NCBI RefSeq assembly: GCF_014200405.1
Contig: NZ_JACHBQ010000001.1
Location: 2,418,001-2,482,000, forward strand
DNA length: 64,000 nt
Direction: 5' to 3'
Source: Cryobacterium roopkundense
GTDB taxonomy: Bacteria > Actinomycetota > Actinomycetes > Actinomycetales > Microbacteriaceae
Each line of letters starts with the position of its first letter. The stretch's first letter is position 1. The translations under genes and the position numbers were made by a program. Shown piece after piece: positions 8,814 to 22,530 of this stretch. The notes under the pieces are model-generated. The model searched no databases and was not told the DNA's origin. It saw only the letters and a list, made by a program, of their open reading frames with translations.

Positions 8814-8897
8814 TCAGAAACCGGCCTGGAGAACCACCAGGCCGGGAAATATGGCGAAGAGAATCGTCATAGGCAGAATCAGGAAGACCAGCGGCAC
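8814..8897 (-). pseudogene. tadC: 3' end of tadC, cut off by the integrated element
   Basis: On the minus strand, 28 codons ending in TGA at 8814-8816 encode a hydrophobic stretch (VPLVFLILPMTILFAIFPG, then LVVLQAGF). This is the usual C-terminus of TadC. The frame continues exactly into the 5' part of tadC at 21587-22446 when the two are joined at GGCAC. It has no start of its own and is not translated as it stands. Confidence 0.9.
8893..8897. other. Left attachment junction of the element (GGCAC core)
   Basis: The host tadC end (to the left) meets element DNA here. The exact crossover dinucleotide lies within GGCAC. Large serine integrases use short cores of this sort. The extent of the full attachment site cannot be read from sequence alone. 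Confidence 0.8.
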
Positions 8898-8920
8898 AAA
8901 CCAAGCAATAAGATACTTAT

Positions 8921-9070
8921 ATGACCTCGACGCGAATCACCTCCACCACGGGCACTGCTCCCCTTGAGCTCAGCGTCAACGGCGCCACCGTTCACATCCA
9001 CGCAGAAGACGGAAGCGGGCAGGTCTACGTGATCGCCGAGCTCATCGCAGCGTTGCGAGTTGCAGCGTGA
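8921..9070 (+). CDS. Small protein upstream of the integrase, unknown function
   Basis: 49 residues, beginning MTSTRITSTTG and ending ELIAALRVAA. ATG at 8921 follows an A/T-rich tract (ataagatacttat) that could hold a -10 box. The stop TGA overlaps the GTG start of the integrase by GTGA, so translation of the two is probably coupled. No family recognised. Confidence 0.5.
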   Translation: MTSTRITSTTGTAPLELSVNGATVHIHAEDGSGQVYVIAELIAALRVAA

Positions 9071-10527
9071 AGGCCGGGATTTACGCCCGCATCAGTCAAG
9101 ACATAGCGGGCACCGAACTCGGTGTGACACGCCAACAGGACGACTGCCGAGCCGAAGCCACACGTCGCGGATGGGAAATCGCGCGCACGTACGTCGACAA
9201 CGACATCAGTGCAACCCGCTCGAAAGTTCGTCCCGAATATCAGCGGATGCTCGACGATGTGGCAAGTGGCTTGATCGATGCACTCGTCGTCTGGGATATC
9301 GACCGCTTGACCAGAACGCCGCGAGAGCTCGAAGACGTTATCGACCTCGCAGACAAGTTCGGGCTCGCGCTCGCCAATGTCGGCGGTGATATCGACCTGT
9401 CGACCTCAGACGGGCGCATGATGGCACGAATCAAGGGCACGCTTGCGCGGCGTGAGGTTGAGCAGATGTCCAAGCGTCTCAAGCGCAAGTTTCAGGAGAA
9501 GGCCGAGAAGGGCGAACCTCACGGTTACAGCCCCTACGGATTCCGGCGTGTTCCAACGCTCGACGCGGGCGGCAACATCGTCGGGAACATTGGCCGTGAC
9601 GAGGTTGACGAGTTCGAGGGTGGGATCATACGCGAGGCCGCGCGCCGAATTCTCGATCACGAATCCCTCCGGTCTGTCGTGATGGACTTCAACGAGCGCG
9701 ACATTCACGGACCCAAGGCGATCGCCTGGAACTCTACGATCCTGCGCCAAATCCTCATGCGCCCAGCCAATGCGGGCCTGCGCCAATACCAGGGCAAGGT
9801 GATCGGGAAGGCGACCACCGAAGCAATCTATCCCGAGGCGACATACAGCGAACTCGTGGCACTGCTCACCGACCCATCGCGCAAATCGAACCACGCCGGC
9901 CCCGGGTACAAGTACCTTCTCAGCGGCGTTGCCATTTGCGGGCTCTGTGGTGGACTCATGCGCCGCCAAATGGGCAAAACGGTAGTCAGTAAGCGGACGG
10001 GCAATTCGAAGCGCCAGCCCGCGTCCTACAACTGCGCGATGTGCTTCAAGGTGCGCCGCAAGCAGGACGACGTGGACGCGCTCGTGACAGGGGTGATCAT
10101 TGCCCGACTGTCGATGCCGGACGCCATTGATATGTTCGCGGTAAATGACACCGCTACGGCCCAGAAATCCCTTGCAGAGATGAACGCCATCGATGCCAAG
10201 CTGGATATCGCCGCGGATCAATTCGCCGAAGACATCATCACGGCCGCGCAACTCAAGCGGATCACGGCACGTTTGCGCGCTGCCAGGGTGACCGCCAACC
10301 GGTCATTCAGGGCAGCCCAACCTCAGACCACGGTAGCTAGCCTCGTCGGCGGTGACGTTGCCGGCAAATGGGCGGAACTCCCTCTCGACGCCCAGCGCGC
10401 GGTCGTGCTCGATCTCGTTTCCGTAAAGATCATGCCATCCGGCAGCGGCAAAGCATTCGATCCAGACGACATCGTTGTCCAATGGAACGACCACAAGAAC
10501 TTAGCTGCGGTTGACCCGCAGTTATGA
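9067..10527 (+). CDS. Large serine recombinase (integrase)
   Basis: 486 residues. The N-terminal resolvase domain (about 1-150) has the catalytic Ser10 in IYARISQD and the conserved Arg residues in DRLTRTPRELED. The recombinase domain (about 160-280) contains YSPYGFRRV. A zinc ribbon follows (CGLCGG near residue 298, CAMC near 326) and then a C-terminal coiled region. The family cuts at a 2-bp core and integrates in one direction unless a directionality factor is present. GTG at 9067 gives the expected MKAGIYARIS start. It is responsible for the insertion into tadC, being next to the left end. Confidence 0.93.
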   Translation: MKAGIYARISQDIAGTELGVTRQQDDCRAEATRRGWEIARTYVDNDISATRSKVRPEYQRMLDDVASGLIDALVVWDIDRLTRTPRELEDVIDLADKFGLALANVGGDIDLSTSDGRMMARIKGTLARREVEQMSKRLKRKFQEKAEKGEPHGYSPYGFRRVPTLDAGGNIVGNIGRDEVDEFEGGIIREAARRILDHESLRSVVMDFNERDIHGPKAIAWNSTILRQILMRPANAGLRQYQGKVIGKATTEAIYPEATYSELVALLTDPSRKSNHAGPGYKYLLSGVAICGLCGGLMRRQMGKTVVSKRTGNSKRQPASYNCAMCFKVRRKQDDVDALVTGVIIARLSMPDAIDMFAVNDTATAQKSLAEMNAIDAKLDIAADQFAEDIITAAQLKRITARLRAARVTANRSFRAAQPQTTVASLVGGDVAGKWAELPLDAQRAVVLDLVSVKIMPSGSGKAFDPDDIVVQWNDHKNLAAVDPQL

Positions 10528-10595
10528 AAGTGCCCCCGTGCTGGTCCAACAGCGCGAGGGCGAGATCCGCAACACCAACTAGAGGAATACGAACC

Positions 10596-11084
10596 ATGGA
10601 CACACTAACCGGAAACAATGTGGGGGGAACCACCATGAACACAATTAACATGCCCGAAGGCACGATCCCATTCGCGTGCTCCATCGAAGGATGTGTCGGG
10701 CCTACCTATGACCCGGAGAGTCACGCGGAGGCAGATGCCCTATTGAATCTGCATAACGCCGTTGCCTACGAGAACGACCTGCTCGAGGTCACCCCGGCCA
10801 TGTTCACCGCGACCGAGGGCAGATGGATACTCTCGGTGGAAATCGCCAACGAGATGACGCCGGCAGAAGCGATCGCAGCCGCCGACGAATTGCATCGTCA
10901 GGCCGAACGAGTGCAGGCGCTGAACGATGCCGTGGAAGCTCAGGCATGGTTTGACACACACCCGAATCCGCTCGGCGAATCGGTGTCCAGCGTCATGTAC
11001 GAATTCCGGGACCGGCGCGCAGCGCTGATGATCATCGTGGCGCGGTGCTCACTGCTACCAGCGCTTCCGATCATCACCGCCTAA
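10596..11084 (+). CDS. Hypothetical element protein
   Basis: 162 residues from ATG 10596 (AGAGGA nine bases upstream). An ATG at 10635 with GGGGGAA upstream would give 149. An early segment, PFACSIEGCVGPTYDP, has two Cys that could bind metal. A helical middle part (MTPAEAIAAADELHRQAERV) follows. No family recognised. It is the first gene after the integrase. Confidence 0.6.
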   Translation: MDTLTGNNVGGTTMNTINMPEGTIPFACSIEGCVGPTYDPESHAEADALLNLHNAVAYENDLLEVTPAMFTATEGRWILSVEIANEMTPAEAIAAADELHRQAERVQALNDAVEAQAWFDTHPNPLGESVSSVMYEFRDRRAALMIIVARCSLLPALPIITA

Positions 11085-11180
11085 CGCACGCTCGACAACG
11101 CCCCGACCTGCGAGAGTGGGCCGGGGCACCACAAAGGGGGGTCCCCCCGTTGACACCACCGCGGTAGCTTGAATCACCAA

Positions 11181-11256
11181 GTCGCTGTAGCTCAGTGGAT
11201 AGAGCGAACGTTTTCTAAGCGTGCTGTCGGAGGTTCGAATCCTCCCAGCGACACCA
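11181..11256 (+). tRNA. tRNA-Arg (TCT), element-borne
   Basis: 76 nt including encoded CCA. The acceptor stem GTCGCTG pairs with CAGCGAC. The D-arm is GCTC-AGTGGATA-GAGC. The anticodon loop TTTCTAA places TCT at 11214-11216. The T-arm is GGAGG-TTCGAAT-CCTCC. The anticodon stem is imperfect (A27-G43 mismatch, T31-G39). It decodes AGA, a rare codon in high-GC hosts. It lies within the integrated element, so it is cargo, not the integration site. Confidence 0.9.
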
Positions 11257-11278
11257 AGATCGACACTGAAGGAACCAC

Positions 11279-11740
11279 ATGCCAAACAACCACTCCAGCC
11301 AGCCGAACCAGAAGCCCACGATATCGGCTGACCCCGAAGCAACATTCGTCTCGATCTACTGCCTAGACGTGTCCCACGACGGCGAGAAGGTGCCGGTCCG
11401 TACGTTCCGACCGTTCGGCGTCACGGAGATTGACGGCGAACAGGTTGTGCAGTGGGCCGAATCCCGACCGGGTTACCAGTCCAACGCGAGTGACACTCTA
11501 GCTCCGCTCAAGGGGCACGCTACGCAATTCCTGCGCGGCAACGAGTACCTACCCGAGGTCAGTGCGCAGCAGTCGCCCGAGGGTGTCGAGCGTTCGCGAA
11601 TCAGCCTGGTCTGCCCCAGACATTCGGCACCTCGCCTAGTTCGCCGCGCCGAGGCTCTGGACCCGATCTTTTCCAAGCTGGCGCAGTTCAGGATCTCTGA
11701 GATCGAGCTGGGCCTCTTCATTCGGCGAGTTGGCAAGTAG
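11279..11740 (+). CDS. Hypothetical element protein
   Basis: 153 residues. ATG at 11279 has GAAGGAA upstream. No transmembrane segment, no recognised domain. The middle is polar with a single Cys (SLVCPRHS), and the C-terminus is basic (FIRRVGK). It follows the tRNA by 22 bp. Confidence 0.55.
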   Translation: MPNNHSSQPNQKPTISADPEATFVSIYCLDVSHDGEKVPVRTFRPFGVTEIDGEQVVQWAESRPGYQSNASDTLAPLKGHATQFLRGNEYLPEVSAQQSPEGVERSRISLVCPRHSAPRLVRRAEALDPIFSKLAQFRISEIELGLFIRRVGK

Positions 11741-11809
11741 CTTGCGATCAAGGTGCTAGAGTGTAAGCGAACCAAGGCGGGCGTCTGATCGGCCTAAAGT
11801 TCTAAACAC

Positions 11810-11853
11810 AGCCTCCCAGCAGAGGAAGATTCTCCCTGCTCGGAGGCTTTCTC
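11810..11853 (+). terminator. Strong hairpin, probable terminator
   Basis: AGCCTCC (11810-11816) pairs with GGAGGCT (11842-11848). The inner arms are AGCAG/CTGCT, and TTCTC follows the stem. It lies 70 bp after the preceding gene. The right arm holds GGAGG, the only Shine-Dalgarno candidate for the short ORF that follows, so the structure could instead control translation. Confidence 0.55.
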
Positions 11854-12069
11854 ATTTCCACCTCAACGATAGGCCGCGCACGAGTCGCGTCCCTCTCCCG
11901 CTCACGATCATCTGACGATCCTGATCTCATCGAAGCGCGGCGCGAACTCGCAGCCGCGAACCTAACCGCGTACATTACGCGCGTGGTGGCGGCTGCACCG
12001 CCTTTCACCCCTGAACAGCGCGAACGACTCACCTCGCTTCTGCGACCCATCGGCGGTGCAGCGGCATGA
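11854..12069 (+). CDS. Small helical phage-type protein with a possible ATT start
   Basis: An open frame with no ATG, GTG or TTG. From the ATT at 11854 (GGAGG eight bases upstream) it encodes 71 residues. The C-terminal part, EARRELAAANLTAYITRVV then PPFTPEQRERLTSLLRP, closely resembles the small helical proteins that sit just upstream of primase genes in actinophages and integrated elements. The stop overlaps the next start by ATGA. The true start is uncertain; coding potential is supported by the conserved-looking end and coupling. Confidence 0.55.
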   Translation: MSTSTIGRARVASLSRSRSSDDPDLIEARRELAAANLTAYITRVVAAAPPFTPEQRERLTSLLRPIGGAAA

Positions 12070-12482
12070 GCGCAGAAAAAAACCGGCCCGCGGGAACGGG
12101 ACCGGCTGAAATTCTCGCTGGCGGCTCGAATACCTCAATCGTATCGGCAGAACCCGCCATACCCGTAGAACCCACGGGCTTGATCGGCTGCACTGTCGAG
12201 AAGCCCCTCGACGCAGCCTTATGGCGCTTGCGCTCCGGCGAGATCGGCCTCGAAGACCTCACACCAGGCCTAGCGGGATTCTGCACCCTGAGCCACGCGG
12301 ATGGGTACGCGGCGGGATTCACGGCGGGTGTGGCATCTGTCGCAGTCGAATTGCGGCAGGCCATTTCAGATCGTGACCGGTATTACCGCGCGGCATTCGC
12401 TCCTATGCAGCCAATCAAGCCCGGCCCGTCATACGCTGAGCTCGAGAAGCGCCGCCACACGTTCGCAGGGGTGGCCGAATGA
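12066..12482 (+). CDS. Hypothetical element protein upstream of the primase-like gene
   Basis: 138 residues. The start overlaps the preceding stop (ATGA), and the stop overlaps the next start. The segment HADGYAAGFTAGVASVAVEL is a helix typical of small phage proteins. The C-terminus SYAELEKRRHTFAGVAE is charged. No function can be assigned. The tight coupling suggests it acts with the DUF3631 ATPase. Confidence 0.6.
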   Translation: MSAEKNRPAGTGPAEILAGGSNTSIVSAEPAIPVEPTGLIGCTVEKPLDAALWRLRSGEIGLEDLTPGLAGFCTLSHADGYAAGFTAGVASVAVELRQAISDRDRYYRAAFAPMQPIKPGPSYAELEKRRHTFAGVAE

Positions 12483-13828
12483 GCGCGCCGGTCGCGTTCT
12501 CAGACGGTTCGACGGTTCACGACGGCTCTAGCGGTTCAATACTGGGGTCTACCTTGACCGGCGTCAGGACCTGGCTCGCTCGATTCATCTCCGTTCCCGA
12601 CGACATCGACCTCGACCTACTCGCACTCTGGGCCGCACACACTCACGTTGCGCTCGAGACGTACTCGACACCGCGCCTGGTCCTCGACTCCACGATGCCG
12701 GGGAGCGGCAAGACTACCGTCCTCGAGCACATGCAGCGTCTCTGCTACGCGCCCATTCAGGCAGCGTCGATCTCATCCCCGGCGCTGCTCGCCCGAATGC
12801 TTTCCAAAGGGATTAGAACGATCCTGATTGACGAGGTAGACCGCTCACTCGACCCGAAGAAACCCGGCGTTGAAGACCTTATAGCCATTCTCAACAGCGG
12901 GTACAAGCGCGGCGCCACTCGCCCAGTGCTCGTACCGGTCAAGGGCGGGGACTGGGACGTTGCGGAGATGTCCACCTACGCGCCCGTAGCGATGGCGGGC
13001 AACTCTCCCCACCTGCCCGACGACACTCGCTCACGCTCTATTCGCGTGCTGCTCATGCCTGATCTCTACGGAGTTGTTGAGTCCTCCGACTGGGAAGAGA
13101 TTGAGCCGGATGCACGCGACCACGCCGAAGCACTCGCCAACGCGATGGAGAGCGCACGCGAGTTCATCCGCACGGTGCGCCCTGCCCTGCCCGAGGGTTG
13201 CGTCGGTCGCATGAAGGAGAAGTGGAACCCGTTGATGCGTGTGGCTGCTGCTGCTGGCGGCACATGGCCGGTCGTCGTGACGCAGCTAATCGAGCGTGAC
13301 ATTCAAGAAGTCGAGATGGAACGAGAAGAAGGCCTGATGAAACTCCCACCCCAGATGGTCATGCTCATGGATCTCTACGCAGCATGGCCCGAGGACGAGC
13401 ATTTCGTGAACGCGAACGAGCTCGTGCGCCGCCTCATCCAGCGCAACCCCGACTACTGGGACACGGCGAGCGCCTACGGCCGGGCCCTCACCGTGCAGCG
13501 ACTCGGCAGGACTCTCGTGCAGATCAAGATCAGGTCCTCGAAGAACTCGCGGGACCAGCGCGGATATGCCCGCGCCGACTTCCTCAAGTCCTGGCGACAG
13601 TCCGGCATCATCCCCCGTATTGAACCGGTGGAACCGTCTGGAAGCGGAGAAGCGTCTGCCAATACCCCTGTATTCGAACCGGTGGAACCGTCGCAGACCG
13701 TCGAACCGGCTACAGCCCGCACCATCTGCCGCGTCTGCTCCGCTCCCCTGCTCGCTCCAGCATCACGCGCCGCGGGGATCTGTGGGAAGCGCAACCCCGA
13801 GCACGATGCCGAGCGGGTCGCAGCATGA
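12479..13828 (+). CDS. DUF3631-type primase/helicase-like ATPase
   Basis: 449 residues. Walker A is STMPGSGKTTVLE near residue 78 and Walker B is ILIDEVDRSLDP near residue 118. The DUF3631 region spans about 60-340. The family replaces or assists replicative helicases and primases in actinobacterial phages and satellites, so replication of the excised element is the likely role. The C-terminus has a candidate zinc site (CRVCSAPLLAP ... CGKRNPEHD). A proline-rich linker near 380-405 is encoded by direct repeats. The start ATG overlaps the previous stop. Confidence 0.78.
   Translation: MSAPVAFSDGSTVHDGSSGSILGSTLTGVRTWLARFISVPDDIDLDLLALWAAHTHVALETYSTPRLVLDSTMPGSGKTTVLEHMQRLCYAPIQAASISSPALLARMLSKGIRTILIDEVDRSLDPKKPGVEDLIAILNSGYKRGATRPVLVPVKGGDWDVAEMSTYAPVAMAGNSPHLPDDTRSRSIRVLLMPDLYGVVESSDWEEIEPDARDHAEALANAMESAREFIRTVRPALPEGCVGRMKEKWNPLMRVAAAAGGTWPVVVTQLIERDIQEVEMEREEGLMKLPPQMVMLMDLYAAWPEDEHFVNANELVRRLIQRNPDYWDTASAYGRALTVQRLGRTLVQIKIRSSKNSRDQRGYARADFLKSWRQSGIIPRIEPVEPSGSGEASANTPVFEPVEPSQTVEPATARTICRVCSAPLLAPASRAAGICGKRNPEHDAERVAA
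12504..12536 (+). repeat. GACGGTTC repeats at the 5' end of the DUF3631 gene
   Basis: Three GGTTC blocks within 33 bp inside the first codons (GACGGTTC twice, then GCGGTTC). Their inverse, GAACC, is repeated five times at the 3' end of the same gene. Confidence 0.6.
13621..13711 (+). repeat. GAACCGGTGGAACCGTC direct repeats
   Basis: The 17-mer GAACCGGTGGAACCGTC occurs at 13622-13638 and 13676-13692, and another GAACCGG follows at about 13703. It encodes repeated EPVEP in the protein and is the inverse of the blocks near 12510. It could be iteron-like. Confidence 0.6.
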
Positions 13829-14067
13829 GCCGCGCAACGGACGCCTACACGCGCCTTCAGGAAGCCATGACCACAACCGATCCCGAGTGCCAGCGTGACG
13901 AGCGATTCATCCGCGATGACCAGGCACCCGGTGAACTCGCGCCGCTCTGCCGAGCATGCCCCCTGTATGACCTCTGCGCCGAATACGCCGAACTTGCGCG
14001 CCCCATCGGCGGCATCTGGGCAGGCAAGCGCTACAACCGCAGCACGACCACGAAAGCGAAGTCATGA
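13825..14067 (+). CDS. WhiB-family iron-sulfur transcription factor
   Basis: 80 residues. The four cysteines C22, C42, C45 and C51 match the C-(n)-C-x2-C-x5-C ligand pattern for a 4Fe-4S cluster. GGIWAGKRY is the WhiB G-I/V-W turn followed by basic residues for DNA binding. WhiB proteins are restricted to actinobacteria and their phages; phage copies can interfere with the host sigma factor region 4. The start overlaps the preceding stop (ATGA). Confidence 0.88.
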   Translation: MSRATDAYTRLQEAMTTTDPECQRDERFIRDDQAPGELAPLCRACPLYDLCAEYAELARPIGGIWAGKRYNRSTTTKAKS

Positions 14068-14345
14068 GCCCGAGAATCCTGAATCGCCACCTCTGCGGCG
14101 CCACTCACACCAGCATCCGGAGCTTCATCGTCTGCTCCTTCCCGCGTGCAGTGGTTCGAGGGTCGGGGAAGTTCGGCGTCATCATCAAGTGCAGGGCCGT
14201 CGAGGTCATGCAATTCACGACGGTAGCCGAAGCCGTCGAGGCCAAGCGACTGCTGGATGTCGTGAGTTGCGCCGCAGGGTGCCGGCGTGAACACGAGGTC
14301 GTGCAGTTCAATCCGAACTCCTCGCACCCAGGGAGTCCGAGTTGA
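14064..14345 (+). CDS. Hypothetical element protein
   Basis: 93 residues, with five Cys including a CAAGC pattern near the C-terminus. The start overlaps the WhiB stop and the stop overlaps the next start, so it belongs to a coupled gene string. No family recognised. Confidence 0.5.
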   Translation: MSPRILNRHLCGATHTSIRSFIVCSFPRAVVRGSGKFGVIIKCRAVEVMQFTTVAEAVEAKRLLDVVSCAAGCRREHEVVQFNPNSSHPGSPS

Positions 14346-14740
14346 ACGCGCGACCTCCGACCGCGTACGTGCATACGGGAACGATGGTCATCATGCCCGC
14401 GCGCATCGCCGCGATGCTCGAACGACATGCACGCCTCGATGAGTTGCGGATCTCGGCTCGCGGTGTCGACGCCGAGTTCGATGCCGTCATGGTCGCGTTC
14501 CACATTGCAGCGACGGAGTGGCGCACTACCGCACTCGGTAGGACTCAAGCGCCGAAGCCGGAAGCGGGCCCACTATCGGAATGGGTCAGCACCGCAGAAG
14601 CGGGGTCAGCCCTCCACATCACCACGCGCGCCGTCGTCCTCGCAATCTCTGAAGGACGAATACGCGCAAACAAAGTCAGCGGGAACTGGCGCATCGCACG
14701 CGAAGACCTCGAACACCACAAAGCCGCACGAGCGGCCTGA
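14342..14740 (+). CDS. HTH (excisionase-like) domain protein
   Basis: 132 residues from a TTG start at 14342 that overlaps the previous stop. The C-terminal half has a MerR/excisionase-type winged helix: WVSTAEAGSALHITTRAVVL, then ISEGRIRANKVSGNWRIARED. Such domains act as excision factors, repressors or terminase small subunits. The exact role is not decidable. The N-terminal half is helical with no recognised domain. Confidence 0.65.
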   Translation: MNARPPTAYVHTGTMVIMPARIAAMLERHARLDELRISARGVDAEFDAVMVAFHIAATEWRTTALGRTQAPKPEAGPLSEWVSTAEAGSALHITTRAVVLAISEGRIRANKVSGNWRIAREDLEHHKAARAA

Positions 14741-14755
14741 ACATTGGATCAGCAC

Positions 14756-15616
14756 ATGAGCATCAACTACACCCCCACCGCCGAAGCCATCAGCCGCCGA
14801 GACGCCGAAGACCGCGCCAGCCGCATCCACGACCAGGACGAAGCCGTTGCCCTGCTCAAGAGTGCCGACCGGAACAGTGACCGTGGACTCGGCTTCGCCA
14901 TCCGCAGGCGCGCCACCATGTTCTCGTGGGACCTCACCGGGCAGACCAACGGCACCCTTGCCAACGACCTGAACACCGAGTTCCGCGCGATCGTCACGGC
15001 ACACAAGGCCTACGGTCAGGGCATCCGCCAGGACCTCGACGCCCGCGCCGTGAGCGCCGAGTATGCGAAGGACCTCATGGAAGCCGGGGACTTTGCGCAC
15101 CGCCTCGACACCGTACTCGAGCGCGCCGTCACCAACCGTGATCAGGCGGTGAAGTCATTCGAGGGCACCATCGCCGCGATCACCACACCCACCGGAACAG
15201 CAGAACAGCAGCTTCTCGTTGAGATCCGCGCCGGTCGTGTGTGGGACCGCCTCACCCGTGAGCTCGACGTGATCAAGGACCCGGCCAGCGCCATGAGCCT
15301 GATCACCACGCGCATCCTCACCGCCGACCCTGCCGAGCTGTCCGTCATCGTCAGTGACGCACCGTCGTACCTCATCGGTCGTGGCCTGCCCAACGCCAAG
15401 ACCAGCATCGTCGCCACGCTGGCACAGAGCCACCCCGCAGTGTCCAAGGCCTATGACCGCATGAACGCCGCCGAGCGCCTGCTCATCGGTGCGCGGTCCA
15501 ACCACCGCCGCCTCACCTCGCGCATTGTCGCTGTCCCGAGCAGCTACAAGGTCGAGCCCGCCGGCACGGAACTCAAGCGCTCGAGCAGCTACACCGACCT
15601 CACCCTCATCAAGTAA
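14756..15616 (+). CDS. Hypothetical element protein, 286 residues
   Basis: Mostly alpha-helical and polar, with no signal peptide or transmembrane segment. It begins SINYTPTAEAISRRDAEDRA. It resembles in composition phage proteins of the early-to-structural boundary, but no fold is recognised. The ATG at 14756 is preferred over a TTG at 14744. Being the largest unknown gene in a satellite-like element, it is a candidate for helper interaction, but that is speculation. Confidence 0.55.
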   Translation: MSINYTPTAEAISRRDAEDRASRIHDQDEAVALLKSADRNSDRGLGFAIRRRATMFSWDLTGQTNGTLANDLNTEFRAIVTAHKAYGQGIRQDLDARAVSAEYAKDLMEAGDFAHRLDTVLERAVTNRDQAVKSFEGTIAAITTPTGTAEQQLLVEIRAGRVWDRLTRELDVIKDPASAMSLITTRILTADPAELSVIVSDAPSYLIGRGLPNAKTSIVATLAQSHPAVSKAYDRMNAAERLLIGARSNHRRLTSRIVAVPSSYKVEPAGTELKRSSSYTDLTLIK

Positions 15617-15623
15617 TAGCCCG

Positions 15624-15974
15624 ATGCGCGTCTGTTCAGTGAGTGGCTGCCCAAAAATCTACGAGGGCACCAAGTCCCGCTGCCCCCTGCACACCAAGGC
15701 AGGTGACCGGGCACGAGGTACCACCAAAGAGCGGGGTTATTCGGGCGCCGGTCACCGCGGGTTTCGTGACGCCATTCTCGAACGTGATCCGATTTGCGTA
15801 ATTTGCAAGGCTGCTGAAAGTTCAGTCGCTGATCATTACCCGCTGAGTCGTCGCGATCTCGTTGACGCAGGCATGGATCCTAACGATCCCTCGAATGGTC
15901 GCGGCTTATGCAAAACCGACCATGACCGTGAGACGGCACGAGCTCAGCCCGGAGGTTGGAATGACCGAGGCTAA
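15624..15974 (+). CDS. HNH endonuclease
   Basis: 116 residues. The core has two zinc-type pairs and the HNH residues: CVICKAAESSVADHYPLSR, then NGRGLCKTDHDRET. An N-terminal Cys-rich part (CSVSGCPKI ... CPLH) is common in phage HNH proteins. These are often encoded next to terS and needed for cos cleavage with the large terminase. Here it is followed after 160 bp by the small terminase gene. Confidence 0.85.
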   Translation: MRVCSVSGCPKIYEGTKSRCPLHTKAGDRARGTTKERGYSGAGHRGFRDAILERDPICVICKAAESSVADHYPLSRRDLVDAGMDPNDPSNGRGLCKTDHDRETARAQPGGWNDRG

Positions 15975-16135
15975 GCACTCTTGGACAGCGACCCGAGGGC
16001 GTCAGTCAGGCACAAGGCCCGTGGCGGGACCCTCTCTCCGCTTCTCTAAGGCGCGACCGACGGAGAGGGCTGCCCGGTCACGATGCGTACGGAGCCCCCA
16101 ATTGTCCCCCACCTCGACACCCCGAAAGGCACCCA
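15975..16135 (+). other. Gap between HNH and terS, candidate cos/pac region
   Basis: A non-coding stretch with an interrupted inverted repeat (CTCTCCG near 16034 and CGGAGAG near 16061). In many phages with the HNH-terS order the packaging site is in or near this gap. There is no direct evidence of cutting here. Confidence 0.3.
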
Positions 16136-16552
16136 TTGACCAAGCCCGCGACTGAGACCGCGACGAAGCTCTTGCCCGACCCCCCAACCGTGCTCGGCGA
16201 TCGTGGCCGCACGCTTTGGGCACAGATCCATGAGACCTACGAATTCGACCCGCAAGACACCAACCTCGTGATCGAGGTGTGCCGCACCCTCGACACGATC
16301 GACACGCTCGCCGCGGCCATTGCTGCGGATGGGGTCATGGTCACTGGCTCTCAGGGCCAGCTCGTCATGAACGGGGCGGTCGGTGAACTCCGTCAGCAGC
16401 AGGCTGCGTATGCCCGTCTCGTGACGATGTTGAACCTGAATGCCGCGGCGACTGGTTCGGCTTTGATCACGGCGACTTCTGCCAGTGCATCCGCTGCGGC
16501 GAATGCTCGTTGGTCCAAGGTCGCTCAGGCTAAGCGGGCCAATCGTGGCTAG
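16136..16552 (+). CDS. Phage terminase small subunit (P27 family)
   Basis: 138 residues from a TTG start with AAAGG seven bases upstream. The features LGDRGRTLWAQIHETYEFDP and VIEVCRTLDTIDTLAAAIAA, then NGAVGELRQQQAAYARLV, match the P27 small terminase family. TerS recognises packaging sites and partners the large ATPase/nuclease subunit, which is absent from this element. A lone TerS is a hallmark of satellites that redirect a helper's packaging motor. Confidence 0.83.
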   Translation: MTKPATETATKLLPDPPTVLGDRGRTLWAQIHETYEFDPQDTNLVIEVCRTLDTIDTLAAAIAADGVMVTGSQGQLVMNGAVGELRQQQAAYARLVTMLNLNAAATGSALITATSASASAAANARWSKVAQAKRANRG

Positions 16553-16916
16553 GCTCCGTTCCGCTTCTGCTGCCACTGTCGCCGCCGGCTACACCCCGGC
16601 CGAGCTGCTCGATCCCCGTCATGCCGTCTGGACCAACCCGAAGCACGCCGCGCAGTGGATGGAAGATCACCACCTGAATTCGAGCGTGGCACGGATGCGG
16701 GATCTCCCCGGCCCGCTGAACCGTCACGGGCACGCCGCGCAGCAGTGGGCACACGCCCAAGGCCTAACCACGCGCTACCCCGGCGGCGGTGTCGGCATCG
16801 ACTGGCACCAGGTCAACGCGGCCGGCATTAATTGGGCAAGCGGCGCACGAATCATGGAAAAGCTCGAACATGCGGGCGTCACCATCACCAAAGACAACGA
16901 CACGAACGGATCTTGA
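16545..16916 (+). CDS. Hypothetical element protein
   Basis: 123 residues from a GTG start overlapping the terS stop by 8 bp. It contains VWTNPKHAAQWMEDHHLNSS and a His-rich segment (NRHGHAAQQWAHAQG). No recognised family. It lies where a large terminase gene would begin in a full phage. Confidence 0.5.
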   Translation: MARLRSASAATVAAGYTPAELLDPRHAVWTNPKHAAQWMEDHHLNSSVARMRDLPGPLNRHGHAAQQWAHAQGLTTRYPGGGVGIDWHQVNAAGINWASGARIMEKLEHAGVTITKDNDTNGS

Positions 16917-16917
16917 A

Positions 16918-17214
16918 ATGACCACATCGAACCTCGATTTCAACAGCATCACCGGTAAGAAAGGGATCGACCAGGCGCGCGCTTTGCGAATGGTCTTGGC
17001 GGTCCTAGAGAACGACTGCACGCAATCCGTTTCGGTGGCTGATGAGGTGTACCGGGATGAGCGCGGGTCGGAACTTGCTACGTGGGAGCTGGTGGTGTCG
17101 CTTGCAGCAGGACTAGCCGGTGTGTGGGAACGACGCGCCGACGGCGAGGCGACCATCGACGCCATTCGAGAAGGACTCATGATCCACGCCGAAGGGAAGT
17201 CAGTCCATGAGTGA
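16918..17214 (+). CDS. Hypothetical protein upstream of the tape measure gene
   Basis: 98 residues, acidic and helical. Tail assembly chaperones normally precede the tape measure gene, and this is in that position. It lacks a visible frameshift extension and I cannot match it to that family. The stop overlaps the tape measure start by 8 bp. Confidence 0.5.
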   Translation: MTTSNLDFNSITGKKGIDQARALRMVLAVLENDCTQSVSVADEVYRDERGSELATWELVVSLAAGLAGVWERRADGEATIDAIREGLMIHAEGKSVHE

Positions 17215-19981
17215 CCGGACTGTAAGGGTCAGCCTCACGGCGAACGTGGCTGGCTATCTCGCAGCCATGGAGAAGGCGAGGAAGTCCACCGATAACGTCG
17301 GCAAGTCTTCCGCAGAAGTCAAAACGAAGTTCGAAGCGCAGAACGCCGCCATGGCCCAGCTCGGCGCCGGCATGGCCACTGCGGGTGTTGTTGCTGCGGC
17401 GAGTGTCGCTCTCGCGGTAGCCAAGTTCGCTGAATTCGATCAGGCCATGTCGAACGTCAGCGCTGCCACGCACGAGACAACCGAGAATATGGATCTACTT
17501 CGCGATGCTGCTCTCGACGCTGGCGGGCGCACGGTGTTCTCTGCCACGGAGGCCGCGAACGCGATCGAGGAACTGGGCAAGGCGGGACTGAGCACGCAGG
17601 ACATTCTCGGGGGTGCGTTGAATGGTGCTCTCGACCTCGCTGCGGCGGGCGGTCTCGGTGTCGCGGATGCCGCAGGTATCGCGGCCGTGGCTCTGAAGAC
17701 CTTCAAGCTCGAGGGCACGGATATGTCTCACGTCGCGGATCTGCTCGCGGCCGGCGCTGGCAAGGCCATGGGTGATGTGACAGATCTCTCAGCGGCTCTC
17801 TCGCAGTCCGGGCAGGTCGCATCCTCCACGGGGCTGAGCATCGAGGAAACCACGGCCACGCTGTCCGCATTCGCCGCTCAGGGGCTTTTGGGCTCCGATG
17901 CGGGCACGAGCTTCAAGAGCATGTTGCAGCGCCTCACGCCGCAGTCTGCGGAAGCTGCGGCGGCAATGAAGACTCTCGGCATCGATGCGTATGACGCGGG
18001 TGGCAACTTCATTGGAATGGCGAAGTTCGCGGGTGTTCTCCAGACGGCTTTGAAAGACAAGACCGTCGAAGAACGCAACGCGGCCATGGCTACGATCTTC
18101 GGTTCCGATGCCGTGCGCGCTGCCACAGTCCTCTACTCCGAGGGCGAGAAGGGCATTTCGAAGTGGACTGAAGCTGTCGATGATCAGGGATACGCTGCAG
18201 AGACGGCACGAGCCCGCCTCGACAACCTCAGGGGCGACGTGGAGGCGCTGGGAGGCGCTTTCGACACGGCTCTCATTCAGTCCGGGTCAGCGGCCAATGA
18301 CTCGCTACGCGCGCTCGTGCAGACGGGCACCACTGCCGTAGACATGTTCAACAGCGCTCCCCCAATCGTGCAGGAGGCTAGTCTCGCACTCGGTGTCGCT
18401 ACGGCGGCGATCGGGCTCACGGGGGGCGCGTTCATGCTCGGTGTTCCCAAGATCGTCGCGTTCCGGGATGGCATGGCGGCGCTGAACCTCACAATGGGCC
18501 GGACCGCCCTCGCGGGGGGCGCTGTCGGTCTGGGAATCACTGCCCTTGCAATGATCATCGGAGGGGTGGCAACGGCACAGGCAGACGCCAAGGCCAAGGC
18601 AATCGCGTACGGCGACACCCTCGACGCTGTGAGTAACAAGATCTCTGCCAGCACGCGCGAAATGGTCAAGGCCAACCTCGCCGCCGATATCAGCATCATG
18701 GGGATTGGGACAGGTTCATCCGCCTATGACGCTGCGGAAAAGATCGGGCTGGGGCTCGACCTCATCACCAACGCTGCCAGCGGCAATATCGACGCCATGA
18801 ATGAGCTTCTGCCGCTCCTGAACAAGGACACGTCATCCGGAGCATTCAAGAACCTCATGAAAGAGACGGGGCTGAATGCGATCGAACTGACACGGGCGAT
18901 CAACGATGTCACCAACGGCGTCAAGGGTGAAAGCGCAAGCATCGAGGACGCCATTCGAGTGGCCCAGCAGAAGCAGAGCGTGGACCAGGCAACGGTCACG
19001 GCTGCGGATGGTGTTGCGTCGGCGACGCTCACTGCCGCCGACGCGTACCTCGCAGCCAGCGACACAGCTTCCGGACTTCAGTCAACTCTCATGGACCTCA
19101 TCAACTCCATGAACGAGCTCAACGGTGTCGGGCAGGATGCGTCTAGCGCGAACATGGCCTATCAGGAATCGCTCGACGCAGTTGACGCCCAGATAGCCGA
19201 GGTCACGGCCGGGACCGATGGTTACGTGCGAACCCTCGACATCGGCACCGAGGCGGGACGATCGAACCGGGCCATGCTGGACGACCTCGCGGCCAGCAGC
19301 CAGGACGCGGCGCAGAAGCAGTTCGACCTCGACAGCAACACGGCCAACTACAGGACCACGCTCGAGGCCGGTCACCAGGCCGTTGTAGATCGCGCCATAG
19401 CCCTCGGTGCGAACGCCGACGAGGCCAACCGAATCGCGGACGAGATCTCGAAGATTCCGACAGAATCAGCGTGGAAGATGATCGCGGATACGTCCGACGC
19501 TAACCGTACGATTGACGACTTTATCGCAGCTATGGGCCGCAGGGTCGGAACGATCAACTTCCGTGCGCAGCTTCCCGACCTCAACGGGGCCGTGTCGGGC
19601 AGCGGGCGCATGGGCACCTTCGCCACGGGAGGATTCACGGGCATCGGTGGCAAGTACGAGCCGGCAGGAATCGTCCACAAGCAAGAGTTTGTCTCAACTG
19701 CCGAGGCCACCGCGATCCCCTCGAACCGAGCCATGCTCGAATTCATGAACAACGGAGGGAGGGCTCAGGGTTACTCAGGCGGCGGCTACGTTACCGGCCA
19801 GAACGTGCAGTACGTGAACAACAACAACGGAGGCAACTCCACGGTTCACGTCAACCCGCAGGTGTCCCTCGCTGGTGCAACGATCACGGCCGTCATGGAC
19901 GGCCGACCTATCACGCTGATGATTCAAGACCAGATTGTCAGCGCCAATCAGTCCCGTGACGCGAAGTTCCGTCGCGGGTAG
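17207..19981 (+). CDS. Phage tail tape measure protein (TP901-type core)
   Basis: 924 residues. The core (about 60-340) matches the TP901 tape measure family, with FDQAMSNVSAATHETTENMD and GDVTDLSAALSQSGQVASST. A hydrophobic region near 385-450 follows, then a long helical part. The C-terminal segment has GGFTGIGGKYEPAGIVHKQE, the typical end of tape measure proteins. In siphophages this protein sets tail length. By the usual ratio of about 1.5 angstrom per residue, a tail of roughly 140 nm would be expected, if all residues count. No other tail gene is in the element. Confidence 0.9.
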   Translation: MSDRTVRVSLTANVAGYLAAMEKARKSTDNVGKSSAEVKTKFEAQNAAMAQLGAGMATAGVVAAASVALAVAKFAEFDQAMSNVSAATHETTENMDLLRDAALDAGGRTVFSATEAANAIEELGKAGLSTQDILGGALNGALDLAAAGGLGVADAAGIAAVALKTFKLEGTDMSHVADLLAAGAGKAMGDVTDLSAALSQSGQVASSTGLSIEETTATLSAFAAQGLLGSDAGTSFKSMLQRLTPQSAEAAAAMKTLGIDAYDAGGNFIGMAKFAGVLQTALKDKTVEERNAAMATIFGSDAVRAATVLYSEGEKGISKWTEAVDDQGYAAETARARLDNLRGDVEALGGAFDTALIQSGSAANDSLRALVQTGTTAVDMFNSAPPIVQEASLALGVATAAIGLTGGAFMLGVPKIVAFRDGMAALNLTMGRTALAGGAVGLGITALAMIIGGVATAQADAKAKAIAYGDTLDAVSNKISASTREMVKANLAADISIMGIGTGSSAYDAAEKIGLGLDLITNAASGNIDAMNELLPLLNKDTSSGAFKNLMKETGLNAIELTRAINDVTNGVKGESASIEDAIRVAQQKQSVDQATVTAADGVASATLTAADAYLAASDTASGLQSTLMDLINSMNELNGVGQDASSANMAYQESLDAVDAQIAEVTAGTDGYVRTLDIGTEAGRSNRAMLDDLAASSQDAAQKQFDLDSNTANYRTTLEAGHQAVVDRAIALGANADEANRIADEISKIPTESAWKMIADTSDANRTIDDFIAAMGRRVGTINFRAQLPDLNGAVSGSGRMGTFATGGFTGIGGKYEPAGIVHKQEFVSTAEATAIPSNRAMLEFMNNGGRAQGYSGGGYVTGQNVQYVNNNNGGNSTVHVNPQVSLAGATITAVMDGRPITLMIQDQIVSANQSRDAKFRRG

Positions 19982-19994
19982 TCGAACCCCGATG

Positions 19995-20030
19995 AACGCC
20001 CCGCTGTCTTCGGACGGCGGGGCGTTTCTG
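19995..20030 (+). terminator. Strong terminator after the tape measure gene
   Basis: The 14-bp stem AACGCCCCGCTGTC (19995-20008) pairs with GACGGCGGGGCGTT (20013-20026). The loop is TTCG and TTCTG follows. It ends the long plus-strand transcription unit. Confidence 0.85.
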
Positions 20031-20054
20031 CGTTCTGCCGTCTAGGGTTGCTCC

Positions 20055-20270
20055 ATGAACGATCTTCTCCCCTTCTCCGCGCCGCCACCCATCGCCTATT
20101 CAATAGCTGATGCTGCCCGAGCCGTAGGCATGAGCCAAGAGGCGTTCAAGAAGTACCTCGTGTCTGGTGACATCACCCGCAGGTACCCGAACTCGAAGCC
20201 GATCGTGCTCCACTCCGATCTGGTCGAGTGGGCCGGCCTGCTCCCCGTCGACAAGCCGCTACCTAAGTAG
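20055..20270 (+). CDS. Small HTH protein, possible excisionase/directionality factor
   Basis: 71 residues. YSIADAARAVGMSQEAFKKY is a MerR/Xis-like helix-turn-helix, followed by a wing (DITRRYPNSKPIVLHSDLVEW). Short HTH proteins of this kind serve as excision factors or repressors. A role as directionality factor for the serine integrase is possible but not shown. Confidence 0.65.
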   Translation: MNDLLPFSAPPPIAYSIADAARAVGMSQEAFKKYLVSGDITRRYPNSKPIVLHSDLVEWAGLLPVDKPLPK

Positions 20271-20321
20271 GTTTCGTCGGCGCGTCTGCCAAGCTGGGCA
20301 CCCAAAGAGAACGGATGTCAC

Positions 20322-20630
20322 ATGATCATTCAAGCCGGAATCCAATCCGATGAGTTAGCCGTCGAGGCTGCCCTGCTCAACCAAACCCACATCGGGCTCG
20401 CGTTCGGAGCGAACATGGATAACGGCACGGTGACGTATGGTCGCATCGCAGCATTCAACATCGATGCCGAGTATGTCACCGTATATCTAGCAGGGGTCGG
20501 CGCGGGAGAGGATTACTCGTGCATCAACCTGAAGCACACCGAAAAACTCCACTTCAGCCGCTATACGCGTGAAAACCAACTCACGGGAACCCTGGAACGG
20601 ATCGAGAAGAATACCGAGAAGAGCCGCTAG
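20322..20630 (+). CDS. Hypothetical element protein
   Basis: 102 residues with a beta-rich centre (TYGRIAAFNIDAEYVTVYLA). ATG at 20322, with AGAGAACGGA upstream. No family recognised. Confidence 0.55.
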   Translation: MIIQAGIQSDELAVEAALLNQTHIGLAFGANMDNGTVTYGRIAAFNIDAEYVTVYLAGVGAGEDYSCINLKHTEKLHFSRYTRENQLTGTLERIEKNTEKSR

Positions 20631-20644
20631 AACCTCCCACAAAT

Positions 20645-21017
20645 GCCCTCGATGTCCTCACGAATGCCGAGGGTACTCAAATCGGAGTACCCACCCCGTG
20701 ATTTGTCGCCCGGGTCAAATCATCTCCACGCGTGGGGGTCATCACCACAACTGGCAGCCGGGAGGTCCGTCAGCGATTCTGACTGAACTCGAAGGCCTGC
20801 GAAAGTGTGGCCCTGAGGTCCACGGTTCAGTTGTGTACTTCAGGGACACGGGTCACCAAGCATCCGCGGATTCTGAGTACCCCTTGCACTCGTGGCCCTC
20901 GTGCCCACGAGTGTCCTGACCGCTTGAGGGGTCACTCTACGCGACCCCCCTTAGATTCTGATCGAGGGGTATGCAAACTTCGCACCCCCTCAGGGGTTAC
21001 CACTTTGTGGAACCCCT
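20645..21017. repeat. Dense cluster of inverted repeats near the right end of the element
   Basis: Non-coding region with nine short perfect inverted repeats in 373 bp. Examples: GGGTACTC/GAGTACCC (20671-20692), TGATTTG/CAAATCA (20699-20722), the palindrome CCACGCGTGG (20726-20735), CCCTGA/TCAGGG (20811-20845), CACTCGTGG/CCACGAGTG (20887-20913), GGGGTC/GACCCC (20928-20948), GAGGGG/CCCCTC (20964-20991), and AGGGGTTaCCAC/GTGGAACCCCT (20992-21017). The last three share GAGGGGT. Possible origin, packaging site or structured RNA. Confidence 0.7.
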
Positions 21018-21049
21018 CTCAACCCTGGCCCGCATGCCCTCGTAGACAG

Positions 21050-21394
21050 CTCGACGCGGTGGAGATGGTGCGCCGGTCCGAGCGAGCGCTGGGGCTGGCG
21101 ATTCGGGAGGGGCAGTTCCGTGGGGAGATAACGCGTCGTGGACAAGGCGGAGGGGTTGGGCCTGGAGCCACATCTCGTTCAGACCATGATCTGGCTCGGG
21201 TCACGGACTTCGCATCCATAAACGAGCTCAGCGGGAATAGCGCCGGTATCTACGACCTCACCGACCACGTGACCGAAGAGGAGTTCGAAGTGAGCCTATC
21301 GATCGCGAGGGAGGAGGGCCACGGTTGCCAGCACCATGTTCGCGGCCCCGGGCATATGGTCACCAGCATCATGTTCGTGACCTCACGCAGATGA
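21050..21394 (+). pseudogene. Remnant of a phage-type DNA-metabolism/regulatory protein
   Basis: In one frame the translation LDAVEMVRRSERALGLAIRE, later TDFASINELSGNSAGIYDLT and FEVSLSIAREEG, looks like conserved coding sequence of a type seen in actinobacterial phages. The upstream part of the frame runs into the inverted-repeat cluster and the downstream part turns into non-conserved sequence. An ORF from ATG 21065 could still give 109 residues. I judge it a 5'- and 3'-truncated remnant. Confidence 0.45.
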
Positions 21395-21586
21395 TCCCGC
21401 GACCATTCCGGCGACCTTACCGAATTGGTGGCTCAGCAAGTTAGGCACGTCCCCAACATGGTCGGCACGACCGCCAGGGACCCGCCAAAGGGCGTCCACT
21501 GCATGGACTCCCTTTGAGCCGATGAACTACTCAGCGCGCAGGGCATACTCATGTCGCATTAAAAGAGTTTTAATTAGGTATTGACA
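21395..21586. other. Right-end non-coding DNA of the element
   Basis: No gene seen. It contains the palindromic TTAAAAGAGTTTTAA (21559-21573), A/T-rich compared with its surroundings, 13 bp from the attachment core. It may be part of the attachment site arms or an integrase binding site. Confidence 0.4.
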
Positions 21587-22446
21587 GGCACGAGCATGGC
21601 GACCTCTTTCTGACCGGCCACCTCGAGCAAGGCTCGCTTCGCCTGATCTCGCGCGTCCTGAGCCTGAGCACGCAGTACCTCGGCCAGCGGAGACCCGCGG
21701 TCGAGTGCGCCGGTGACCTGGTCCACCAAACGGGTGACCTCGGGCAGGTCGAGGTCGTGGGCCAGGGACTTCAGCGCTTCCGCGAGCGGCACCCCCGTGC
21801 GCACCTCGGCGACAACGCCCGCGAACTCCCGCGACAACTCACCCGAGCTCGTGCCAGCGACCCGCCGCAAGGAGTCAAGGATGCCCTCCCCCGCAGACAG
21901 ACACAGGGTGAGGAACTCCAGAATCGTCGGCAGCTCGCTGCGCATGCGGGCCAGCCGCGCGGTTGCGGCGCGCTGCAACAACCACTCGCGGGCGAGGGTT
22001 CCGCCGATCCCCAGCAACAAGGGCAGCGCAAGCTGCAGCACGAGCGGTAGCGAGCGGACCGCGGGGATCGACGCGGTCAGCACCACCCCGGCGGCCAGAG
22101 ATACGAGACCCCAGACAAGTTGGCCCGAGCGGAATTCATCGACGGTTCGGCTGGAACCGGACTGTCGCATCCGCTTCTCGATGGTATCTGAACCGCCCAG
22201 AACGCTCGATAGCGCGCGCTTCATCCAGCCGAATGCCGGCGCACAGAGCGTGCCCAAGACGGGGAGAGGGCTCACGGACACCCGCCCCATGAACGACCGC
22301 GCCTCCGCTGACACATCCAGGATGTAAGGCGCCACCCGGTCTGCCAAACGCGGCCGACGCAGCCGCGGTGTCAGGCTCACGAGCGACCACAATCCCAGGC
22401 CCAGAGTGGTGCCCAGAAGAACCGCCCACCCGAGCGACGCGGTCAT
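21574..22446 (-). CDS. tadC: TadC, type II secretion F-family protein, C-terminally truncated
   Basis: Inner-membrane platform protein of the Flp pilus machine. 290 residues from ATG 22446 (GTG at 22455 is also possible). N-terminal transmembrane segments are followed by the T2SSF domain (about 155-280, with LPTILEFLTLCLSAGEGILD). The conserved end GQKEVAMLVP is followed by the element-derived VNT and a stop. The last 25 residues, a transmembrane helix, are left at 8814-8897. The product therefore lacks its final membrane segment and is probably non-functional while the element is in place. Confidence 0.9.
   Translation of the reverse strand: MTASLGWAVLLGTTLGLGLWSLVSLTPRLRRPRLADRVAPYILDVSAEARSFMGRVSVSPLPVLGTLCAPAFGWMKRALSSVLGGSDTIEKRMRQSGSSRTVDEFRSGQLVWGLVSLAAGVVLTASIPAVRSLPLVLQLALPLLLGIGGTLAREWLLQRAATARLARMRSELPTILEFLTLCLSAGEGILDSLRRVAGTSSGELSREFAGVVAEVRTGVPLAEALKSLAHDLDLPEVTRLVDQVTGALDRGSPLAEVLRAQAQDARDQAKRALLEVAGQKEVAMLVPVNT
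21587..21591. other. Right attachment junction of the element (GGCAC core)
   Basis: Same five bases as at 8893-8897. To the right is host tadC, to the left element DNA. The element adds codons for Val-Asn-Thr and a stop to the truncated tadC. Confidence 0.8.
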
Positions 22447-22530
22447 CGACGGCACCCGATGGGGTCATCTCTGGTCGGACGCTGATCGGTCATGGATGCA
22501 CTATGCCCCGATTACGCTGGCCCCAGCGAG

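Follow-up and report, generated by a model that had tools for sequence, protein, structure and literature searches.

Introduction

Phage satellites are known for stealing or resizing the heads of their helpers. SaPIbov5, a staphylococcal pathogenicity island (SaPI), is described as redirecting capsids by means of a capsid homologue of its own (PMC8569155). Control of the helper tail was demonstrated only in 2026, and for a single family, the phage-inducible chromosomal island-like elements (PLEs) of Vibrio, in which deletion of the gene for the tape measure protein (TMP) is reported to lower transduction by 96-99.9% and in which PLE11 particles contain the TMP of the PLE and not that of the helper, on evidence that includes western blotting and mass spectrometry (PMC12987554). 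Vibrio PLEs are so far the only satellites for which a TMP of satellite origin has been placed experimentally in helper-made tails; tmp genes also occur in PLE-like elements, and putative ones in some capsid-forming phage-inducible chromosomal islands (cf-PICIs; PMC12987554). This article describes an integrated element of 12,694 bp that carries a TMP gene and resides on the chromosome (a 4.45-Mb contig) of the actinobacterium Cryobacterium roopkundense, at positions 8898..21591 (+) of a 64,000-nucleotide stretch, hereafter the window (contig NZ_JACHBQ010000001.1, positions 2,418,001 to 2,482,000); all coordinates of the element refer to this window.

The element is probably a satellite resembling the phage-inducible chromosomal islands (PICIs), in which a small terminase subunit (TerS) and an HNH endonuclease would redirect packaging while the TMP of the element enters tails made by the helper. 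It has relatives that are widespread in actinobacteria and form an apparently undescribed group, which probably rebuilds part of the helper phage tail. If this is correct, tail piracy would be a general strategy, found in a further phylum in a group that is wider than the Vibrio family and apparently independent of it, and the many natural TMP exchanges could serve to probe the roles of tape measures besides length.

Packaging and tail genes of the element

Three phage-type genes lie on the forward strand in uninterrupted reading frames. The first encodes the HNH endonuclease (15624..15974, phrog_589, E 3.5e-18), which adjoins the TerS gene and is presumed to be associated with packaging. It is followed by TerS itself, of 138 aa (16136..16552; PF05119, Terminase_4, E 8.4e-6, 26.6 bits with a cut-off of 24.7; phrog_1496, E 9.5e-21), and by an intact TMP of 924 aa (17207..19981; PF10145, E 1.2e-45; phrog_1533, E 5.9e-87). 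Neither TMP nor TerS was found a second time in the genome. When the 16 open reading frames (ORFs) of the element were compared with the profiles of Pfam and PHROGs, none matched a large terminase subunit (TerL), portal, capsid, connector, tail tube, tail tip or lysis protein. The first-pass annotation, which had described TerS, HNH and a full-length TMP unaccompanied by TerL, portal, capsid, connector or lysis genes, was thus correct on both counts.

The borders of the element were set by comparing its junctions with intact tadC of Cryobacterium relatives. An uninterrupted tadC, for example at L237 (L numbers denote the loci compared), crosses the site (...GCTCGTGCCGCTGGTC...), and the window holds two separated halves of the gene: the 5' part with its T2SSF domain at 21592..22455 (-), the ORF of which continues to 21574 inside the element, and the 3' part beyond the other end at 8824..8897 (-). 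Both junctions have only GTGCC in common, a 5-bp core found on the left at 8893..8897 (GGCAC, reading GTGCC on the tadC strand) and again on the right at 21587..21591, one copy being counted in the length of the element. In all 31 Cryobacterium genomes compared, including that of the window, the best tadC match stops at residue 290-293 of the window ORF, which is 293 residues long. The same integrase cluster adjoins the same tad-gene clusters in L032 (Agreia pratensis), L035 (Cryobacterium sp. HLT2-28) and L046 (Pseudolysinimonas kribbensis), and tadC is therefore a recurrent site of integration.

Related elements and prophages

A search of 398 genomes of the family with the TMP gave matches in 48 genomes and 50 distinct places, of which 41, the window included, were read over approximately 20 kb each, nine weak ones being left out; of these 41, 19 are elements and 22 are ordinary prophages. 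A further 160 loci came from GTDB contigs and IMG/VR scanned with an alignment of element TMPs, namely the best 80 of 140 and the best 80 of 438, which are sampled by TMP and give no estimate of prevalence. Removal of identical TMP cores left 173 loci, which a first rule divided into 46 elements, 118 prophages and nine short loci; the final classes are 48 elements, 112 prophages, ten loci that are too short and three that are undecided, L074 and L078 having been moved to the elements on account of carrying only one connector homologue each. PHROGs served to name the TerL, portal, protease, major capsid and major tail gene clusters of the prophages.

An arrangement that runs from integrase to TMP with no TerL, portal or major tail gene is thus found in 47 further non-identical loci besides the window. 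Their hosts are mostly Microbacteriaceae and Micrococcaceae, and named hosts also include Cellulomonadaceae, Promicromonosporaceae, Georgenia, Luteimicrobium and Klenkia. Loci L078 and L079 are those of Microbacterium sp. Leaf320 and M. murale. By the first rule, elements made up 2 of the best 80 TMP loci from IMG/VR as against 35 of the best 80 from genome contigs, and virus catalogues may therefore miss such elements. Thirteen relatives with a tRNA gene beside the integrase were compared, and in ten of these an exact direct repeat of the 3' part of the tRNA (24-53 bp) lies past the TMP gene; no such bounding repeat was found in the other three. The ten elements delimited in this way by attachment sites (att) measure 10.3-16.2 kb and enclose both integrase and TMP, and none has a match to TerL, portal, capsid or major tail proteins, a single connector homologue being present in L074. 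The search for capsid-less actinobacterial islands that had been proposed at the outset therefore succeeded, with one locus (L060) that does encode a capsid protein.

Genes that play no part in the class definition are the informative ones. Among the 48 elements, protease, scaffold clusters 16 and 69, Dit, tail14 and families a, c and d of the major capsid protein (MCP) are each absent, and MCP family b occurs once; the summed counts over the 112 prophage loci, which are low because the prophage stretches are often cut, are 71 for protease, 49 for scaffold, 63 for MCP, 57 for Dit and 48 for tail14. In addition, a PHROGs comparison of 20 of the 31 unlabelled ORFs of at least 230 aa located between integrase and TMP showed no TerL, portal or capsid. 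A frequent layout consists of an integrase, an XRE repressor, an HTH_17 protein resembling excisionases, a replication initiator or AAA-type gene, a gene for a protein termed p286 (described below), TerS or a scaffold gene, and TMP. The repressor cluster occurs in 19 of the 48 loci, 18 of which also have the excisionase-like cluster, one representative of each having been named by Pfam. TerS is recognised in 14 loci and HNH in three, and a head scaffold cluster, one member of which is named by PHROGs, in four. The capsid protein of L060 (10690-12276; phrog_10, E 7e-24) is encoded upstream of TerS and TMP, with no portal or TerL match in that locus, and is possibly a modifier of capsid size. 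In the 3' part of L086, one of the att-bounded elements, an RmrA-like protein (13790-14923; PADLOC, E 3.6e-120) is possible defence cargo.

Several relatives carry further genes of the tail end beside TMP. A candidate tail-tip or receptor-binding gene comes next after TMP in 10 of the 48 elements; ten post-TMP proteins were run against Pfam and PADLOC, and further candidates may be missed. The candidates comprise beta-helix proteins in L076, L079 and L112 (the last just under the Pfam cut-off), that of L079 having a glucanase as its best match and matching a phage pre-neck appendage protein over residues 26-84 (E 1e-8); GDSL esterases in L084 and L091, the former matching phage genes annotated as esterase or tail fibre; in L105 and L137, homologues of a gene that trails the prophage tail genes; and a three-member family in L085, L092 and L106, whose L106 member matches minor tail proteins of Microbacterium phages (E 1e-6). 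A tail spike is encoded upstream of TMP in L147. Directly before TMP, nine of the 48 elements have a homologue of the prophage gene that occupies the position of the tail assembly chaperone. The idea that post-TMP ORFs of relatives are Dit homologues was not supported on comparison. The proposal that the satellite determines the identity of the helper tail tip consequently finds some backing in these spike- and tail-type genes of relatives and none in the window itself, where no spike-, esterase- or minor-tail-type gene of these kinds is present.

Conservation and exchange of the tape measure protein

In 14 aligned element TMPs, invariant residues span positions 60 to 809. Eight pairs of elements have ratios of nonsynonymous to synonymous substitution (dN/dS) of 0.08-0.31, and four pairs of an element and a prophage have ratios of 0.15-0.46, dS being close to saturation in most cases. 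Element TMPs are therefore under purifying selection, and the protein looks like a working part. Damaged members also exist: the gene is frameshifted in L085/L035, L070 keeps 285 aa, and L280 and L272 keep remnants. The lengths of TMPs are alike in the two classes (median 934 aa in 45 elements and 944.5 aa in 108 prophages, p 0.17), and a changed length of helper tails is accordingly not indicated. The TMPs closest to that of the window, P0005 and P0006, stand at 77% and 68%.

A tree of 95 TMPs, in which 45 element and 47 prophage rows were counted, requires 25 changes of label, at least 17 of which are forced by starred branches; the tree omits L070 and L135 (truncated), L085 (frameshifted) and the prophage rows from IMG/VR, and its support values come from a short search only. 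According to these label changes, TMPs have moved between elements and phages on many occasions. For 14 of 33 named elements the nearest prophage TMP belongs to the same genus, where permutation predicts 2.6, and for 27 of 33 it belongs to the same family, where 16.3 are expected. Moreover, 17 of 45 element TMPs are nearer to a prophage TMP than to that of any other element.

Since the loci were collected by way of TMP, all 48 elements have one, and the 398 genomes were therefore also searched with p286. This search gave 23 places in 22 genomes. Twelve of these have a TMP gene, 11 of them of the same family as that of the window (including the frameshifted L035); the remaining one, L271 (10172-13843, genome G159), encodes a TMP of 1224 aa whose best family is phrog_58 and which is not matched by the element TMP model. 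Different TMPs thus occur on the same p286 backbone, and that of L271 seems distant rather than unrelated, since the window TMP also matches phrog_58 weakly. TMP remnants were found in two of the 23 places and no recognised TMP in nine, where a distant one could escape detection. In six of the places with no recognised TMP (L273, L275-L279), a small serine recombinase (approximately 214-226 aa) follows soon after p286.

Other genes of the element

The remaining genes of the element are likewise on the forward strand. At the left end lies a large serine integrase of 486 aa (9067..10527; PF00239, E 2.3e-29; phrog_95, E 3.2e-90), followed by an ORF of unknown function (10524..11084, start possibly at 10596) that matches DUF6907 below its cut-off. 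A gene for tRNA-Arg(TCT) (11181..11256) comes next and has counterparts between the integrase and replication genes of L081 (4634-4707), L083 (4899-4972) and L120 (5030-5101), in elements of different genera. A role in codon supply was rejected, AGA making up 4 of the element's 243 Arg codons compared with 4 of 102 in five flanking genes; one may speculate that the tRNA counters cleavage of host anticodons or serves the helper.

The tRNA gene is succeeded by p153 (11279..11740), of unknown function with homologues in L033/L083, L046/L092 and L050/L120, and by the equally uncharacterised p138a (12066..12482), homologues of which lie directly upstream of a helicase-type gene in relatives. A DUF3631/AAA-type protein of 449 aa (12479..13828; PF12307, E 3.3e-17) is the presumed replication protein. 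Then follow a WhiB-like regulator of 80 aa (13825..14067; PF02467, E 6.2e-4, under the cut-off; phrog_31604, E 3.3e-5) and an HTH_17 or excisionase-like protein (14342..14740; PF12728, E 6e-5, under the cut-off; phrog_1840, E 0.008).

The p286 gene (14756..15616) belongs to a family present in 24 of the 48 element loci. Its product has no match in Pfam or PHROGs, and its structure model, which is all-helical and confident (pLDDT 88.9), matches no fold in the PDB or among viral structures at E<=0.001. Lacking matches to sequence families and folds alike, p286 as modelled is not a recognisable structural protein, and the proposal that this 286-residue protein is a divergent structural protein, such as a hidden capsid or scaffold, was rejected. 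The family, represented by the copy in L096, is matched by none of 50,697 phage records, and it is absent from the 112 prophage loci, the early regions of which fall mostly outside the stretch read.

Two small genes separate TerS from TMP: p123 (16545..16916), beside TerS, with weak homologues in L077 and L102, and p98 (16918..17214), which overlaps the start of TMP and occupies the presumed tail-chaperone position of prophages. Profile comparison of p98 with both prophage families of that position, which are named by position only, gave probabilities <1%, and its identification as a tail assembly chaperone was rejected. At the right end lie p71 (20055..20270), which resembles HTH or excisionase proteins by eye and has no family match, and p102 (20322..20630), of unknown function. 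On the same visual impression, p71 may act with the serine integrase as its recombination directionality factor.

Proposed mechanism and alternatives

The gene content suggests the following course of events. After a temperate siphophage helper enters the cell or is induced, the element would excise and replicate, and HNH and TerS would steer the large terminase of the helper onto satellite DNA. The element TMP would replace or compete with that of the helper in helper-made tails, giving chimeric tails as in the Vibrio PLEs. In several relatives, the spike- or minor-tail-type gene after TMP may extend the remodelling to further parts of the tail end. The likelier gains are an escape from superinfection exclusion, from blocks at DNA entry and from defences directed at TMPs or tails, such as Tai and Rta, or a way of ejecting DNA that is adapted to the satellite; the TMP of phage HK97 reportedly takes part in DNA entry. 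Since element TMPs are of prophage length and related to the TMPs of local phages, the gain is probably independence of the helper TMP and not a matter of tail length. The window HNH is 56-62% identical to those of prophage loci L043, L044 and L047, which also carry homologous TMPs; for both reasons, phages of this type are the likeliest helpers.

A broader proposition can be advanced tentatively. In it, the elements form a wide actinobacterial satellite lineage that re-tools the tail of the helper and not its head, supplying the TMP and sometimes also a spike or a protein for receptor binding, with the heads, the packaging motor and the tail tube taken from the helper; the TMP would be a replaceable cassette, re-acquired from phages that share the host. 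Satellite particles of such a lineage would have a DNA-entry route and a host range of their own.

Several observations weigh against the view that the element is a TMP-supplying satellite. TerL, portal, major tail and minor head genes define the classes, and their zero counts in the elements are a matter of construction and not evidence. TMP is a frequent cassette and not a fixed part of every p286 element, and TerS is recognised in only a minority of the 48 loci. Labels on the TMP tree are slightly more clustered than shuffled ones, which average 31 changes (9 and 6 of 500 shuffles being as low as observed), and exchange of TMPs is therefore not free. A tail chaperone was not recognised in the window element, and the chaperone-position gene of its relatives has no PHROG match and owes its name to position. 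Finally, a search of the window genome for a resident helper with TerL family phrog_9 gave no convincing prophage (the control matched in 4 of 14 genomes), and one with phrog_2 gave a single weak match, inside a 1174-aa frame, and again no convincing prophage; a helper need not, however, be resident.

An alternative that must be considered is that the satellite TMP is a weapon, which jams or mis-measures the tails of helpers or competitors in a dominant-negative manner, protecting the host and favouring the satellite. Tail assembly is described as a target of satellite and prophage defences (Tai, PMC11364771; Rta, PMC12987554), and the gene that precedes TMP in the window, p98, is not homologous to the presumed chaperones. 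Invariant residues across most of the protein, lengths like those of prophage TMPs, exchange with prophages and the adjoining of prophage tail-module genes in some relatives accord better with a functional structural component, and this explanation appears unlikely.

It seems quite improbable that the element is an integrative element that moves by another route, such as conjugative mobilisation, with its phage genes as passengers. WhiB and DUF3631 proteins are not phage-specific, and the nine p286 places with no recognised TMP, six of them with the small serine recombinase, indicate a backbone that is not tied to phage genes. Against this, none of the 16 window ORFs scanned matched a relaxase or coupling protein, and the 3' halves of elements repeatedly contain genes for TerS, HNH, scaffold, capsid and TMP.

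Decay of a prophage, with loss of the genes for head and tail and chance retention of HNH, TerS and TMP, could produce the gene order through a deletion between TerS and TMP, and the broken members noted above are in keeping with it, but this origin, like the notion of a unique, decaying island, is highly improbable given 48 non-identical loci with the same outcome and various integrases, ten of them att-bounded, together with p286, replication and HTH genes that the prophage loci were not seen to carry and TMPs that are mostly open and under purifying selection.

Comparison with known satellites

Like PICIs and SaPIs, the elements measure 10-16 kb and encode an integrase, regulators, replication genes and sometimes TerS, have attachment sites of their own and, in some members, carry scaffold or capsid genes (PMC6092414, PMC8569155). 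The 12,694 bp of the window element agree with the size of around 12-15 kb given for PICIs, the ten relatives measuring 10.3-16.2 kb, and the frequent layout of the elements resembles the PICI layout as described in PMC6092414; the window has integrase, DUF3631 and WhiB/HTH genes and no recognised XRE repressor. PICIs differ in being defined, in the same descriptions, by the absence of phage structural genes, whereas TMP is constant in the loci collected here, and hosts and gene families differ as well.

The Vibrio PLEs, as presented in PMC12987554, are alike in being satellites that encode a TMP and lack full structural sets. They belong to another phylum and apparently depend on another type of helper, ICP1 being a lytic contractile phage, while the TMPs of the elements have homologues in siphophage-like prophages. 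Where PLEs combine TMP with a chaperone and a baseplate hub protein, the window element has TMP with neither of the others recognised, nine relatives having the chaperone-position gene, and unlike in PLEs its TMP is accompanied by TerS and HNH. cf-PICIs share HNH and TerS and in some cases a putative tmp (PMC10690885, PMC12987554), and differ in carrying capsid, protease, portal, connectors and TerL (PMC10690885), none of which was recognised in the window element. The earlier proposal that TerS and TMP define a new satellite type must consequently be narrowed, as satellite TMPs are already on record in PLEs, PLE-like elements and some cf-PICIs and the pair is not constant among relatives; no actinobacterial satellite with a TMP was found in the literature searched, which mostly excluded subscription papers and works available only on bioRxiv.

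MulchRoom and MiniFlayer of Streptomyces are likewise actinobacterial phage satellites. They are described as encoding TerL, portal and capsid, and the tail of MulchRoom is thought to derive from its helper (PMC10690885), a division of labour opposite to that proposed here, in which head and motor would come from the helper and the satellite would contribute to the tail.

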